From a bacterium (GTDB lineage: Bacteria; Bacteroidota; Bacteroidia; NS11-12g; UBA955): a stretch of DNA of 37,378 nucleotides. Positions 7,025 through 14,299 of the stretch are shown here, piece by piece. Below the pieces are notes generated by a model, which saw nothing but the letters and a program-made list of their open reading frames with translations, was not told where the DNA came from and did not search any database. The position numbers and the translations under genes are program-made. The stretch is from positions 1 to 37,378 of the forward strand of contig JAQSCZ010000028.1 of NCBI GenBank assembly GCA_029945665.1, read 5' to 3'. Each line of letters opens with the position of its first letter. Position 1 is the first letter of the stretch.

Positions 7025-7056
7025 TTTGATGTATTCGTTATAATTCCTCAAATTTG
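7025..7056 (+). promoter_or_regulatory. Probable promoter for the lipoprotein gene at 7066
   Basis: A TTTG at 7025-7028 is separated by 20 bases from CAAATTTG at 7049-7056. That is the Bacteroidota -33/-7 arrangement with one mismatch in the first base of the -7 box, and the box is followed by C as in other boxes of this window. It ends nine bases before the ATG. Confidence 0.4.
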
Positions 7057-7065
7057 CACTATTAT

Positions 7066-7662
7066 ATGAAAGCAATCAAGTATTTATCTGTTTTATTTTT
7101 TCTTGGCGCTGTATTATTTTCTTGTAAGCCTCAAGATCAACAAAAACATTCGCTTGATCCTGTAACCAAGGCCTATTTAGAAATTAAAAATGGCTCGAAG
7201 TATACCTTTACTCAACCGGGTGATACCAACGTTGTATACGTATACAACACCACCAACTACAATAACAGTCAAAGTAACCCTGATATTGAGAACAGTGAAA
7301 TACTAAGTTACGATTTAGTTTCACCGGGTCAACCTAAAATTACAATTCGTGCCGAGTCTGGTGGAACACAGTTCCGCGATAGAATTGCGGTGGTTACGAA
7401 TAGAAATGATACCAATTTTGTGGGTCCCATTATATTTAATTTAGATGGCACTTTTTCAACAATTACAAATTCAGGTGATACTGTTTTTAGCTATCTAACT
7501 TATACAATTAATGGAAAAGTGTTCAATGATGTTGTAAGAGTTAAACTTTACAATACAGAAATTTACAGAGAAATATTCTTTGCAAAGAACATTGGATTAA
7601 TTGCGCGCAGAGAGAAAAATGGCACTTTGTATTATGCTAAAAGTTATAGCATAGTCAAATAG
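7066..7662 (+). CDS. Lipoprotein of unknown function
   Basis: Encodes 198 residues. The ATG at 7066 gives a compact lipoprotein signal peptide, MKAIKYLSVLFFLGAVLFSC, with lipobox L-F-S-C and lipidated Cys20. An upstream in-frame TTG at 7054 would only add four residues before it. The mature part is about 178 residues, rich in Thr/Asn/Tyr and beta strands, and contains no domain I recognise. The residues after the cysteine (KPQDQQ) lack an obvious surface-export acidic tag. The gene stands alone, divergent from the amidohydrolase and converging on the heptose kinase. Likely anchored in the envelope. Confidence 0.75.
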   Translation: MKAIKYLSVLFFLGAVLFSCKPQDQQKHSLDPVTKAYLEIKNGSKYTFTQPGDTNVVYVYNTTNYNNSQSNPDIENSEILSYDLVSPGQPKITIRAESGGTQFRDRIAVVTNRNDTNFVGPIIFNLDGTFSTITNSGDTVFSYLTYTINGKVFNDVVRVKLYNTEIYREIFFAKNIGLIARREKNGTLYYAKSYSIVK

Positions 7663-10073: not shown

Positions 10074-11069
10074 ATGACTGTTGAAAATATACTATACCAA
10101 TTGCTTTTGGAACATGAATGTGTAATACTTCCAAATTTTGGTGGATTTATTGTGAGAGAGAGCCCTTGTAACTACAATTCTGCTAAAGAAATAATTAAAC
10201 CATTTAGCAAATCCATTTTTTTTAATCAACATTTGACGGAAAATGATGGTTTATTAATAAATGCGATCTCTAGAATTAAAAGTTTGTCATACATTGAATC
10301 AACAAAAGAAGTTGAATCTTGGATTAAACAATTATCGGAGCAAATAGAAAATAATAGTAAATTAAACATCCCAAACATCGGTAATTTCACAAAGGGAACC
10401 GATGGGAACAAATGGTTTGCAGCAGACCCAATGCTTAACCTCTCTTTGTTAACTTATGGCCTAAAACCTGTAAAGGCATCAGTTGTGAGTGAATCAATTC
10501 TTAAAGTTGCGGAGCCTGAATTTGAAATAAAACCATTAGCTGATAATAAACCTATTGAAACCTTTGCTGTAACACGCAGTAATTGGAAAGCCTGGACCGC
10601 AGCGGCTGCTATTGCTCTATTAGCGCATGTTGGATATTTAACAATAGAAGGTTTTCAAACGAAAAATTCAAACCAAGCTGCTGTTGTAACTTTACCTGCA
10701 ATACCTGAAAATATCAATGTGGTTGAATCAACTATTCAAGAGGATACTGTTTTATTAATTCCTAAAACAGAAATAGAAAATAGAACGGAAGTGACGGTGC
10801 CTGAAACAGAACAAGCTTTGTCTTCAGAAATGACTGAAATAAAAACCGAAGAACCTACACCCATTGTTACGGAGGCCCCCATTCCTGATGCGCTAGTCAT
10901 TGAGTCTTCTCCAATTATTGAAGCCAATTCAGAGACTGTTGTTGGTAAATACAAACTTGAGATTAATGCCCTTAATCACGTTAAAGATTTATCTAAAAAT
11001 GGTATAATTGGTAGAATCGAAATTAATGCGCAAGGTCTTTACGATGTGAAAACACCTTTAGTAAAATAA
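10074..11069 (+). CDS. Membrane-anchored HU-CCDC81-type protein with truncated SPOR-like C-terminus
   Basis: A 331-residue protein with three parts. Residues 1-125 form two HU-like (CCDC81-type) units; the first has ECVILPNFGGFIVRESP at about 15-31 and the second has LNIPNIGNF at 97-105. One transmembrane helix lies at about 174-191. A Glu/Pro/Thr-rich spacer (200-290) leads to a short C-terminal segment (291-331) ending in GLYDVKTPLVK. That segment looks like the first half of a SPOR peptidoglycan-binding domain, lacking the second helix and last strand. The HU part should be cytoplasmic and the tail periplasmic. It sits 48 bases before exbB, suggesting a link to the energised envelope complex. 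Confidence 0.75.
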   Translation: MTVENILYQLLLEHECVILPNFGGFIVRESPCNYNSAKEIIKPFSKSIFFNQHLTENDGLLINAISRIKSLSYIESTKEVESWIKQLSEQIENNSKLNIPNIGNFTKGTDGNKWFAADPMLNLSLLTYGLKPVKASVVSESILKVAEPEFEIKPLADNKPIETFAVTRSNWKAWTAAAAIALLAHVGYLTIEGFQTKNSNQAAVVTLPAIPENINVVESTIQEDTVLLIPKTEIENRTEVTVPETEQALSSEMTEIKTEEPTPIVTEAPIPDALVIESSPIIEANSETVVGKYKLEINALNHVKDLSKNGIIGRIEINAQGLYDVKTPLVK

Positions 11070-11117
11070 TTAATTCACACAAAATAAAACAACAATTTAC
11101 TACGTTATAATATAAAC

Positions 11118-11816
11118 ATGCTTTCATTTATTCTTTTACAACTGCCGAATGCTGTAGATTCAGCTAATTTGGCACAATCTGCAGCAGCAACTGCACAAAT
11201 CCCTGACAATCTATGGGCACTAGCCGTTAAAGGTGGTGTAGTTATGATACCAATTGGTATCATGTTCGTATTCGCACTATATCTAGCAATCGAAAGGTAT
11301 TTAACTATTAGAAATGCCGCCAAAATTGACAATGCATTCATGTCGAATATCAAAGACATGGTATTAAATGACAATATTCTAGGTGCTAAAACACTTTGTA
11401 CTAGAACAAATACGCCAATCGCACGAATGATTGAAAAAGGCTTATCACGCATTGGTAAACCGATTCAAGACATTGATTCTTCAATCGAAAATGTCGGCAG
11501 AATGGAAATTTACAAAATTGAAAAGAATGTGGGCTTTTTAGCTACTATAGCTGGTTTAGCTCCTATGTTTGGTTTCCTTGGAACTATTTTCGGGGTTATT
11601 CAAATGTTTTATAAAATATCATTAGCTAACAGTATTCAAATTGATATTATTTCTGGTGGCTTATATGTAAAAATGGTATCAAGTGCTGCTGGTTTATTAT
11701 TGGGTATCTTCGCTTTTGCTAGTTACCATTATTTAATGTTAAAAATTGATAGAGTGGCCAATAAAATGGAAGCTTATAAATTAGAATTTATCGATATTCT
11801 TCAACAACCTGCTTAA
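11118..11816 (+). CDS. exbB: MotA/TolQ/ExbB proton-channel family protein
   Basis: A 232-residue inner-membrane protein with three transmembrane helices at about 37-58, 138-162 and 185-208. The family signature GLAPMFGFLGTIFGVIQMF occupies 146-164. With ExbD it forms the proton-motive-force-driven motor that powers TonB- or Tol-type trans-envelope work. A short periplasmic N-terminal extension (residues 1-35) precedes helix 1, as in other Bacteroidota homologues. It is 12 bases upstream of exbD and belongs to the same plus-strand operon. ExbB versus TolQ cannot be separated from sequence alone; I use exbB because a TonB-like partner follows. Confidence 0.88.
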   Translation: MLSFILLQLPNAVDSANLAQSAAATAQIPDNLWALAVKGGVVMIPIGIMFVFALYLAIERYLTIRNAAKIDNAFMSNIKDMVLNDNILGAKTLCTRTNTPIARMIEKGLSRIGKPIQDIDSSIENVGRMEIYKIEKNVGFLATIAGLAPMFGFLGTIFGVIQMFYKISLANSIQIDIISGGLYVKMVSSAAGLLLGIFAFASYHYLMLKIDRVANKMEAYKLEFIDILQQPA

Positions 11817-11828
11817 ATTTAAAGACAA

Positions 11829-12236
11829 ATGGCTATCAGAAAAAGAAATAGAATTACTTCGGAATTCAGTTTGTCTGCGATGACAGATATTATCTTTATG
11901 TTGCTGATATTTTTCATCCTTACTTCAACAGTATCGCCAGAACCTATTCTTAAGATTATATTGCCAAAAGGTGTTCAAACAGATCATTTGGCAGTAGATC
12001 CAATTATTATTTCTTTAAACGCACAAGGTGAGTATGCGGTGAACAATCAAAAAAATATTACCATAGAAAGTTTACCTTTAGCACTCGAATCGGAATTAAA
12101 GAAAAACCTGACTGCACCTGTTAGTATTCATGCAGATAAATCTGTTATGTATGAGAAAGTAATGGAATTAGTAAGCATTGCTAATAAAAAAGGTGCGAAA
12201 GTGGTTTTGGCATTAGATAAAGAAACCAGTAAATAA
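11829..12236 (+). CDS. exbD: ExbD/TolR family motor protein
   Basis: A 135-residue protein with a short basic cytoplasmic start, one transmembrane helix at about 15-37 and a periplasmic domain. The conserved membrane aspartate needed for proton use is present as Asp20 (SAMTDIIFMLLIFFILTS). The periplasmic end (VSIHADKSVMYEKVMELVSIANKKGAKVV) matches the ExbD/TolR fold. It lies 12 bases after exbB and seven bases before the TonB-like gene, forming a complete motor set. It is a single copy, whereas many Bacteroidota operons carry two exbD genes. Confidence 0.9.
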   Translation: MAIRKRNRITSEFSLSAMTDIIFMLLIFFILTSTVSPEPILKIILPKGVQTDHLAVDPIIISLNAQGEYAVNNQKNITIESLPLALESELKKNLTAPVSIHADKSVMYEKVMELVSIANKKGAKVVLALDKETSK

Positions 12237-12243
12237 TCAAACT

Positions 12244-13041
12244 ATGAACCAATTAACCGAAGAGATTGAGATAATCAACAAACGTATCTCTGGCATTACT
12301 ACCGCAGTAATCACAAGTTTAATTATATTGGTTCTTGTATTAATGCAGTTTAAAATTGAGCCACCGAAACCAGAGGAAGAAGGTGGCGGGGTTGCGGTAA
12401 GTTTAGGTGAGCCTGATGCAGGTGGACCAGAATCTGTGCCAGTTGAAGCTTATCAACCACCTGTTGAACCTACTTTTCAACCAAGAGAACAGGCACAAGA
12501 ACAAACAGAAGATCCTGATGCTGTTGCTATTCCTAAAACACCAAAAGAAGTTAAAAATGATGTTAAGACTCCTGCCCCACCAGTTGAAGATGATATCATA
12601 AGAAAGATGCGTGAAAACGCTGAGAAGAATAAGAATAAACCATCGAATAGTGGTAGTGGAACCAAACCTGGTGCACAGGGTGCTCAAAATGGAATACCTG
12701 GCGGCGACCCTAATGGGAAGGGAACTGGTCCTGGAACAGGCGGTGGTCCTAGTGAGGGCTTAGGCACAGGAACTAATAAAAGTGTCAATCACACCTTTGG
12801 TAGCAGAAAACTAAGTCTTGCTAATAATACAGAAAATTGTGGTGAAAAAGGAACTGTAATTGTTGATGTAATTGTAAAAGCTGATGGGAGTATAATTCCC
12901 ACTGGTATCAATCCAAGTACCAAATCTTCATCTCAATGCTTGCAGACTTTGGCTATGAAATTTGTAAGAAATTCCAAATTTGCAGCTTCAAGTATTTCAA
13001 GTGCCGATGGTACGATCACCATTAAGTTTACACTTAATTAA
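12244..13041 (+). CDS. TonB/TolA-like energy transducer
   Basis: A 265-residue protein with an N-terminal anchor helix at about 19-36, a Pro/Glu-rich spacer (38-115), a charged helix, a Gly/Asn/Pro-rich linker (135-180) and a C-terminal domain of about 80 residues ending FTLN. The C-terminal domain has the TonB-like pattern GTVIVDVIVKADGSI. Two cysteines, C199 and C232, sit in it and could form a disulfide. It completes an ExbB-ExbD-TonB set in which it should span the periplasm and pull on outer-membrane partners. Whether it serves TonB-dependent receptors or acts like TolA is unresolved; a nearby receptor gene is absent. Confidence 0.8.
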   Translation: MNQLTEEIEIINKRISGITTAVITSLIILVLVLMQFKIEPPKPEEEGGGVAVSLGEPDAGGPESVPVEAYQPPVEPTFQPREQAQEQTEDPDAVAIPKTPKEVKNDVKTPAPPVEDDIIRKMRENAEKNKNKPSNSGSGTKPGAQGAQNGIPGGDPNGKGTGPGTGGGPSEGLGTGTNKSVNHTFGSRKLSLANNTENCGEKGTVIVDVIVKADGSIIPTGINPSTKSSSQCLQTLAMKFVRNSKFAASSISSADGTITIKFTLN

Positions 13042-13072: not shown

Positions 13073-14299
13073 ATGACTTATACGGAAACCCTCGATTTTT
13101 TATTTACGCGACTCCCCTATTTTACCCGAGATGGAAAGGCTGCGCTAAAGCCCGATTTAACCAATACTATTTTATTGTGCGAGGCCATAGGCAATCCGCA
13201 TTTAAAATTTAAATGCATTCATATTGCTGGAACCAATGGCAAAGGCAGTACAAGTAATATGCTTTCGGCCATACTGCAATTGCAAGGCTATAAAACAGGT
13301 TTATATACTTCACCCCACTTAAAAGATTTTCGTGAACGCATTCGCATAGATGGCGAAATGATAACCGAATCATTTGTAATTGATTTTACTGAAAAAATAA
13401 TTCCATATTTGGACACCATACAACCTTCCTTTTTTGAAATTACGGTGGCCATGTGTTTCGATTATTTTGCACAACAAGAAATTGACTATGCTGTGATTGA
13501 AACAGGTTTAGGCGGACGTTTGGACAGTACCAATATTATTCATCCTATACTTTCGATAATAACAAACATAGGTTACGACCACATGGATTTATTGGGCGAT
13601 ACATTATCAAAAATTGCATACGAAAAAGCTGGTATTATTAAACCTGAAATTCCGGTTGTAATTGGCGAAAGTCATACCGAAACAGATGCTGTGTTTATTG
13701 AAAAGGCCAAGGTAGAAAACGCTCCGATTTATTTTGCTGATCAAAATCCAAATTATTACAATACCGAAATAGAAACGGATTTAAGAGGCATTTATCAAAA
13801 CAAAAATGCCATTACAGTGATGCAATCTGTTGAAGTATTGCAAAAGCTGGGTGTTAAAATAGATACATTTACTGCAGCACGTGCTTTAAGGCAAGTGCAA
13901 AAATTAACAGGCTTCAGAGGTCGATGGGAAATCATACAGGAAAATCCTAAGATAATTGCCGATACGGGGCATAATGAGCATGGCTTGCGTTTGGTATTTG
14001 AACAATTGAAACAAGAGACATTTGAACATTTGCATATTGTATTTGGCATGGTAGCAGATAAAGACAGAAGTAAAATATTAAAACTATTGCCAATTAATGC
14101 CACTTATTATTTTTGTAAACCAGATTTACCCCGTGGTTTAGATCCATCGGTTTTAAAGGATGAGTGCAATGCTATCGGACTTTTAGGAAAGACTTATGAC
14201 TCTGTTCAAGCGGCTTATATTGCGGCAAATGAAAATGCCAAAGAGAAAGATTTAATATTTGTTGGTGGAAGTACATTTGTAGTGGCAGAGATATTATGA
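13073..14299 (+). CDS. folC: Bifunctional folylpolyglutamate synthase / dihydrofolate synthase
   Basis: A 408-residue Mur-ligase-fold enzyme that adds glutamate to dihydropteroate and to reduced folates using ATP. The P-loop GTNGKGST is at 53-60, followed by the family segment YTSPHLKDFRERIRIDG (about 79-95). FIVEIT-type and ETGLGGRLDSTN motifs lie in the centre (ETGLGGRLD near 142-150), and the C-terminal domain includes FGMVADKD. Length is normal. It follows the TonB-like gene by 31 bases and overlaps rnhA by four bases (ATGA), so it is probably read from the same transcript. The association of folC with exb genes appears to be a Bacteroidota gene-order habit, not a functional link. Confidence 0.92.
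   Translation: MTYTETLDFLFTRLPYFTRDGKAALKPDLTNTILLCEAIGNPHLKFKCIHIAGTNGKGSTSNMLSAILQLQGYKTGLYTSPHLKDFRERIRIDGEMITESFVIDFTEKIIPYLDTIQPSFFEITVAMCFDYFAQQEIDYAVIETGLGGRLDSTNIIHPILSIITNIGYDHMDLLGDTLSKIAYEKAGIIKPEIPVVIGESHTETDAVFIEKAKVENAPIYFADQNPNYYNTEIETDLRGIYQNKNAITVMQSVEVLQKLGVKIDTFTAARALRQVQKLTGFRGRWEIIQENPKIIADTGHNEHGLRLVFEQLKQETFEHLHIVFGMVADKDRSKILKLLPINATYYFCKPDLPRGLDPSVLKDECNAIGLLGKTYDSVQAAYIAANENAKEKDLIFVGGSTFVVAEIL

Follow-up and report, generated by a model that had tools for sequence, protein, structure and literature searches.

The CCDC81-like HU proteins with SPOR domains (PF18174/PF18175), the Tol-Pal system and the TonB-ExbB-ExbD system are the closest described counterparts of the locus analysed here, a four-gene operon at positions 10,074 to 13,041 of a 37,378-nucleotide (nt) stretch of Bacteroidota DNA (the window; GenBank assembly GCA_029945665.1, contig JAQSCZ010000028.1, positions 1 to 37,378, forward strand; Bacteroidia; NS11-12g; UBA955). 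Gene 1 of the operon shares both HU domains with the CCDC81-like proteins and differs from them by a half-SPOR tail in the window's genus. The HU-SPOR architecture was reportedly described by Burroughs et al. in 2017, with a role in chromosome partition proposed; the point added here is the link of a CCDC81-like HU/SPOR protein to a motor, an outer-membrane barrel and a TPR protein. An account of the full cassette with barrel, TPR protein and motor was not found in the literature searched, which comprised open-licence papers and no preprints. The locus, we posit, specifies the inner-membrane half of a dedicated trans-envelope machine of Bacteroidota that is driven by protons.

With Tol-Pal (TolQRA-TolB-Pal-CpoB) the cassette has in common a proton motor, a rod composed of transmembrane (TM) segment, linker and C-terminal TonB/TolA fold, a TPR partner and a wall-binding domain nearby; unlike Tol-Pal, it shows no TolB or Pal, has an outer-membrane barrel and an extra HU/SPOR adaptor, and does not reach the TolQ and TolR cut-offs. 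How Bacteroidota constrict their outer membrane without the usual Tol-Pal set is, to our knowledge, an open question, for which a cassette kept inside and outside one class names candidate genes. Passages of a review on Tol-Pal describe Escherichia coli CpoB as the TPR protein of the tol-pal operon and list Proteobacteria, Chlorobi, Chlamydiae and Acidobacteria as carrying the system; the review's main text contains no word beginning 'bacteroid' (PMC7391070). TonB-ExbB-ExbD systems, including the exbB-exbD-tonB1 set of Riemerella anatipestifer (products of 24, 14.7 and 30.6 kDa; PMC4446302), are alike in their motor and TonB-fold transducer, single short ExbD and receptor-type barrel as partner, but the cassette differs from TonB-ExbB-ExbD in its barrel without a detectable plug, its linked TPR and HU/SPOR proteins and an ExbB group apart from the canonical one.

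The operon and its cassette

The four open reading frames (ORFs) and the adjoining folC share one strand, with successive gaps of 48, 12, 7 and 31 nt, which are short enough to make a single transcript of the four-gene operon likely. A scan for promoters and terminators was uninformative, giving 14 promoter-like sites where 13.9 would be expected and 1 terminator where 2.1 would be. The features are as follows (aa, amino acids):

10074..11069, + strand: gene 1, HU-CCDC81/TM/half-SPOR protein, putative inner-membrane adaptor, 331 aa
10080..10439, + strand: tandem HU-fold domains 1 and 2 of gene 1, residues 3-122, slightly acidic, without RNPxT
10584..10667, + strand: predicted TM helix of gene 1, residues 171-198, one hydrophobic helix in the model
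10932..11057, + strand: half-SPOR tail of gene 1, beta-alpha-beta-beta, residues 287-328, from model and profile alignment
11118..11816, + strand: gene 2, second-motor proton-channel subunit of ExbB/TolQ type, 232 aa, from Pfam and tree
11829..12236, + strand: gene 3, ExbD/TolR-type subunit, 135 aa, membrane Asp at residue 20, from Pfam and alignment
12244..13041, + strand: gene 4, TonB/TolA-fold transducer, 265 aa, with N-terminal TM segment, Pro/Gly-rich linker and C-terminal domain 179-265
13073..14299, + strand: FolC, neighbour gene, from Pfam

The four genes are part of an older and widely kept Bacteroidota cassette, TPR-barrel-HU/SPOR-ExbB-ExbD-TonB, which occurs whole or in parts. PF18174, the first HU domain of gene 1, was matched in 37 of 39 genomes drawn from relatives (the window's own included), and a search of 197 genomes of the class matched it in 154, with one place listed per matching genome. 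Neighbours were tallied at 115 loci from 59 families, comprising one or a few loci per family chosen from the hits plus 34 from f1 and f2, the families of the window's order (families, loci, genomes and contigs carry the prefixes f, L, G and C). The tally includes two f10 loci fetched for their barrel and leaves out the window's own locus, an ordinary HU (L124) and copies of counted loci (L035, L037 and L038); the neighbour profiles were seeded with operon members and match their own seed sequences by construction. Same-strand neighbours of gene 1 include the barrel in 53 loci from 16 families, ExbB together with ExbD in 49 loci from 16 families, TonB in 55 loci from 13 families and the TPR protein in at least 24 loci from 12 families, the last a lower bound as many stretches end there.

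Outside the class, barrel, HU, ExbB and ExbD are kept together in all 18 loci (f13, f20, f23, f25, f29 and f93), which were chosen from hits with long open frames, and TonB is added in f20 and f23. FolC adjoins none of these 18 loci, which makes it an internal control for gene order that is merely kept. Parts of the cassette also persist on their own: the barrel-HU pairing without a motor in f4, f45 and f50, and HU-TonB without adjoining ExbB-ExbD in 15 loci of f1, f2 and f89, with the ExbB-ExbD pair located elsewhere in those f1 and f2 genomes that were followed up. The gene grouping is thus more than chance, its order recurring inside and outside the window's class. The initial annotation of an HU-type gene followed by a complete ExbB-ExbD motor and a TonB/TolA-like gene is borne out by the four ORFs and their domain matches, and the operon conservation that it proposed as a check was found both inside the class and in the 18 loci outside it.

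A second motor and its transducer

Gene 2 matches PF01618 (MotA_ExbB) at 80.8 bits (cut-off 22.9) and gene 3 matches PF02472 (ExbD) at 83.4 bits (cut-off 25.4). Channel residues are retained: the window's ExbB has the TM2 Thr and carries Ser at the TM3 position, and across 63 second-motor ExbBs, relocated ones included, TM2 Thr is present in all 63 and TM3 holds Thr in 36 or Ser in 27. The membrane Asp of ExbD is present in all 63 printed alignment rows, a reading that replaces a too-narrow pattern count (38 of 62). As a side observation, all 14 canonical ExbBs compared have Thr at the TM3 position, where 27 of 63 second-motor ExbBs have Ser.

The window's genome encodes exactly two ExbBs, one on contig C76 in an ExbB-ExbD-ExbD-TonB set and the other in the window, and two ExbB genes were found in all ten genomes of the class that were checked. 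In a tree of 32 ExbBs, its 14 genomes being hand-chosen and three weak ExbB places (G056, G441 and G080) left out, a single group (support 80/95) unites 14 second-motor ExbBs, one from each genome, and holds the cassette ExbBs together with the second ExbB of three genomes in which HU stands alone (G059, G202 and G213). This group is separate from two canonical ExbB groups and from E. coli TolQ and ExbB, the E. coli rows being long branches of unsure placement. The window's motor is therefore a second motor, distinct from the canonical ExbB-ExbD-ExbD-TonB system. Its genes do not reach the NCBIfam cut-offs for TolQ (71 bits against 221) or TolR (50 against 127). A preference for TolQ over ExbB models (71 against 48 bits for the window's ExbB) was discarded as evidence for a Tol system, since the canonical ExbB scores likewise (102 against 68).

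Gene 4 codes for a protein with an N-terminal membrane helix, a Pro/Gly-rich linker and a C-terminal domain modelled by AlphaFold at a predicted local distance difference test score (pLDDT) of about 90. It falls below the cut-offs of TonB families (TonB_C, 19.5 against 24.6 bits; TIGR01352, 24.3 against 27.1 bits), and the fold of its C-terminal domain matches TonB (Z 7.3) and TolA (Z 6.8) in a tie, so that the fold was dropped as a discriminator between the two. The transducer alignment comprises the window's protein and 40 of 41 TonB ORFs.

Two arrangements next to these genes are recorded here as observations in their own right. In several f1 genera (L150, L151 and L152, also L157 and L158) ExbB-ExbD is no longer in the HU operon and immediately precedes a gene for a protein of approximately 350-425 aa, which in the two scanned (L150 and L151) matches PagL, a lipid A deacylase; L151 also has a DUF502 membrane protein and purD upstream. 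In f23, the cassette TonB is followed by a gene for a large sortilin/BNR-repeat protein (L167:7718-10906), and ORFs of like size lie downstream of TonB in L172 and L178.

The HU pair and the SPOR tail of gene 1

Both HU domains of gene 1 score above the curated cut-offs, PF18174 at residues 3-58 (E 2e-17, 63.3 bits against 26) and PF18175 at residues 59-122 (E 2.7e-10, 40.4 bits against 35), and the protein is a member of the CCDC81-like prokaryotic HU family. Among 91 homologous proteins (window included), PF18175 is matched by all 91 and PF18174 by 90. The hallmark of DNA-binding HU/IHF proteins is the RNPxTG arm motif; RNPxT occurs in none of the 91. The net charge of the HU pair is -3 in the window, with a median of -2 and values at or below zero in 75 of the 91 proteins, compared with +14 for a true HU of the same genome. 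Judged by its sequence, the window's HU pair thus appears to have neither the basic surface nor the arm motif that mark DNA-binding members. The HU alignment comprises the window's protein and 90 of 94 ORFs, leaving out the cut L054, L122, L124 and a 66-aa ORF of L123.

Structure comparison of the gene 1 model recovered the HU fold (1huu, Z 7.0 over 70 residues). The best matches over both HU domains were chains of the Tetrahymena doublet microtubule (8v3l, Z 8.7, 113 residues aligned), the Mycoplasma gliding motor (9io5, Z 7.8) and the sea urchin doublet microtubule (8snb, Z 7.8), which are tied with Z within 1; Foldseek returned no match at E<=0.001 for the models of gene 1 and of the transducer. 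CCDC81b is described as a Tetrahymena microtubule inner protein (model 8V3I; PMC11961760). The cassette gives a cellular setting to bacterial relatives of eukaryotic CCDC81.

In two f10 genomes (G087 and G184) the position of gene 1 is taken by a protein, 241-254 aa long, that combines a hydrophobic helix and a tail resembling SPOR (E 2.5e-6 and 5.8e-4); a Pfam search of these genomes found neither PF18174 nor PF18175, and an HU-only profile gave E 0.57 and 1.1 against the two proteins, with no HU domain. The cassette can therefore do without the HU pair. That the f10 protein is a divergent HU/SPOR protein was considered and rejected, as its match covers only membrane helix, linker and SPOR tail. 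One of the two f10 cassettes has all six genes plus FolC (L195:6734-7495 for the TM-SPOR protein) and the other is without FolC (L201:6710-7432), the HU pair having been lost or never present. The acidic charge, the absent RNPxT motif, the structural matches and these HU-less cassettes together suggest that the HU pair may be a protein-docking scaffold rather than a DNA binder, and a scaffolding role of CCDC81-type HU folds may already have existed in bacteria.

Beyond the HU pair, gene 1 has a single TM helix at about residues 171-198 in the model and by hydrophobicity, followed by an acidic stretch (net -12) that would be periplasmic. SPOR (PF05036) is matched at E<=0.01 by 60 of the 91 proteins, and at least 80% of an 82-position tail profile is covered by 66 of 102 proteins outside the genus; the profile was built from the full tails of 34 homologues, which are among the 102 and match by construction. 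The window's tail aligned to this profile at positions 14-52 only, and weakly (7.3 bits, E 0.032). Seventeen genomes of the genus were drawn and 14 tails compared, with L036 counted in the genus as its contig fits G006. Against the profile, four of these 14 (L036, L070, L047 and L051) match in the window's register at E<1e-3, L064 has no match and L055 matches outside the tail. In a MAFFT alignment all 14 tails stop before the second half of SPOR and share the core [KR]Y[KR]xxxNAxxHxxDLxKxG; tail length and core are alike throughout.

The AlphaFold model places beta-alpha-beta-beta at residues 287-328 with pLDDT near 97, having been built with full SPOR homologues in the alignment, on which it may lean. 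The tail matches SPOR domains (1x60, Z 5.0; 6i05, Z 4.9, root-mean-square deviation 1.7), a resemblance that is not decisive because unrelated folds, PrgK and homing endonucleases, outscore them (Z 5.2-5.5). The tail fails the definition of a complete SPOR domain (beta-alpha-beta-beta-alpha-beta with a PF05036 match), and a genome-wide profile search found no place in the window's genome that passes the SPOR cut-off. We infer that the tail is a conserved first-half remnant, the ancestor having had a SPOR domain of which the genus keeps a trimmed half. The SPOR-like periplasmic tail of the initial annotation thus holds for the family, 60 of the 91 proteins matching SPOR, and for the window as a first half only.

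Variants of gene 1 were seen elsewhere. The HU proteins of L060, L088, L120 and L122 have no SPOR match in the tail, that of L060 stopping shortly past the membrane helix and that of L122 ending in a hydrophobic helix. In some loci outside the class (L123:2965-3165, L163:6975 and L171:7169), barrel and HU/SPOR gene have another small HU-like ORF of 66-138 aa between them, and at L171:5463-7156 the HU/SPOR gene is split into two overlapping ORFs (374 and 289 aa), possibly by a frameshift or a sequencing error.

Putative barrel and TPR partners and possible role

Complete members of the barrel family have 535-637 aa and a signal-like N-terminus by eye. Like TonB-dependent receptors they show barrel-part homology: in solved siderophore receptors (5fok, E 1.2e-8; 6i2j, E 4.3e-8, described as a ferric enterobactin receptor and which we take to be PfeA), the family profile aligns with the barrel part and not with the plug. 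Unlike such receptors, the three barrels scanned (L039, L100 and the member in the window's genome) yielded no plug or any other Pfam family at E<=0.01, and a short conserved motif lies near the N-terminus, I...Y.P.L..A.KI...P in the consensus of 70 sequences with a different reading in loci outside the class. The barrel is thus a relative of TonB-dependent receptors without a detectable plug. Among the 197 genomes of the class, 193 have a family match at E<=1e-6 and 186 have one at E<=1e-20, the seven weaker matches possibly being other receptors, and the window's own genome has a member (C72:9754-11421, E 9e-117); 47 of 51 barrels entered the barrel alignment.

In 18 of 19 further barrel loci a TPR protein of approximately 1,000 aa is encoded upstream of the barrel on the same strand, the exception being the locus in the window's genome. 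At most 63 nt separate the two genes, or they overlap, in 16 of the 18; the gap widens to 405 nt at L194 and to 1071 nt at L192. Two of these proteins were scanned and match TPR families, with YfiO above cut-off. Signal-like N-termini, by eye, suggest that both the barrel and the TPR protein are exported.

We propose that the products may form a physical complex in which ExbB and ExbD would constitute the motor and the TonB/TolA-fold protein a moving rod that reaches through the wall to act on a partner in the outer membrane, most likely the plug-less barrel with its short N-terminal motif. The TPR protein would be a periplasmic co-factor and the HU/TM/SPOR protein an inner-membrane adaptor, with the HU pair as a cytoplasmic docking scaffold that can be lost and the SPOR tail reading the wall, in the genus through the half domain. 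The likeliest job would be a Tol-like coordination of the outer membrane with the wall, probably during constriction; as the main job this is a tentative assignment to which we give somewhat less than an even chance. SPOR tails, a TPR partner and the scarcity of TolB_N make it plausible, TolB_N being matched in 2 of 197 genomes of the class and in the window's genome not at all at E<=0.001. A more ambitious version, which we consider doubtful, is that the cassette is an undescribed ancestral counterpart of Tol-Pal, in which plug-less barrel and large TPR protein replace TolB-Pal and an HU docking adaptor couples the motor to the septal wall via SPOR, one family having since dropped HU and one genus having cut SPOR to a working half that may pair into a whole sheet.

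Several observations weigh against a Tol-like machine. No Pal or TolB was found among the cassette members scanned, and a Pfam search of the four operon genes and four neighbouring genes gave no Pal/OmpA domain (the rest of the genome was not searched for Pal); TolB_N is matched in a control of the same class, Bacteroides ihuae. The window's tail is only half a SPOR domain, with no PF05036 match at E<=1, and the tail profile finds no match in L088, L120, L122 and one of the two L171 ORFs. In the window's genome the barrel lies on another contig than the operon, and no TPR gene adjoins it at that locus (a genome-wide TPR search was not made). The transducer fold is tied between TonB and TolA. 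As for the division-coupled Tol counterpart of the initial annotation, the kept second-motor operon, SPOR-bearing homologues, rare TolB_N and TPR neighbour speak in its favour, and the missing Pal and TolB in the operon, the half SPOR and the hemin role in Riemerella speak against it. Such a receptor phenotype is of the type that the initial annotation listed as refuting, provided that it were the sole one. The window itself does not encode the barrel and TPR partners, which were therefore out of view of the initial annotation.

That hemin role belongs to a competing explanation, in which the locus is a second Ton system: its motor and TonB-like protein would power ordinary TonB-dependent receptors, or else transport through the linked barrel, and the HU/SPOR protein would only anchor or place it. 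TPR and SPOR partners are, as far as we know, unusual for Ton systems; moreover, the linked barrel, although derived from a TonB-dependent receptor, has no detectable plug, and a canonical ExbB-ExbD-ExbD-TonB set is present in the same genome. The TonB-like fold of gene 4 agrees with such a system, as do results from R. anatipestifer, where the exbB-exbD-tonB1 complex energises a hemin receptor in E. coli, hemin uptake is abolished when tonB1 and tonB2 are both deleted, and the set has a single 14.7-kDa ExbD and a divergent TonB (PMC4446302). By gene sizes and order this set is a probable orthologue of the window's motor that backs up hemin uptake, a further point against a Tol-like role. We give a second Ton system well under an even chance, and Tol-like and Ton-like roles could coexist.

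Gene-order hitchhiking, in which the genes stay together without joint work, would fit the HU genes that have none of the other genes alongside (45 of 115 loci, 39 of 59 families), which also count against a common machine, and the folate enzyme FolC, which adjoins the operon in 39 of the 115 loci from 8 of the 59 families. FolC, however, is kept inside the class only and is probably not part of the machine, and barrel, HU, ExbB and ExbD stay together in 18 of 18 outside loci, with different pairs surviving where other cassette genes are lost; hitchhiking is accordingly improbable, and the cassette genes very probably form a functional unit. A nucleoid tether, in which a DNA-binding HU pair fastens the chromosome to the septal wall via SPOR, would account for the HU fold and for the SPOR tails of homologues. 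The nucleoid contact raised in the initial annotation does not agree with the charge of the HU pair, the absence of RNPxT from all 91 proteins, or top structural matches to eukaryotic doublet microtubule and Mycoplasma gliding motor chains, and the two f10 cassettes with an HU-less TM-SPOR protein lowered our estimate further. It is unlikely that the HU pair contacts the nucleoid, and we consider a tether highly improbable.

Elsewhere in the window, positions 7054-7662 encode a small protein without a Pfam family above cut-off that carries, by eye, a lipoprotein-like signal.

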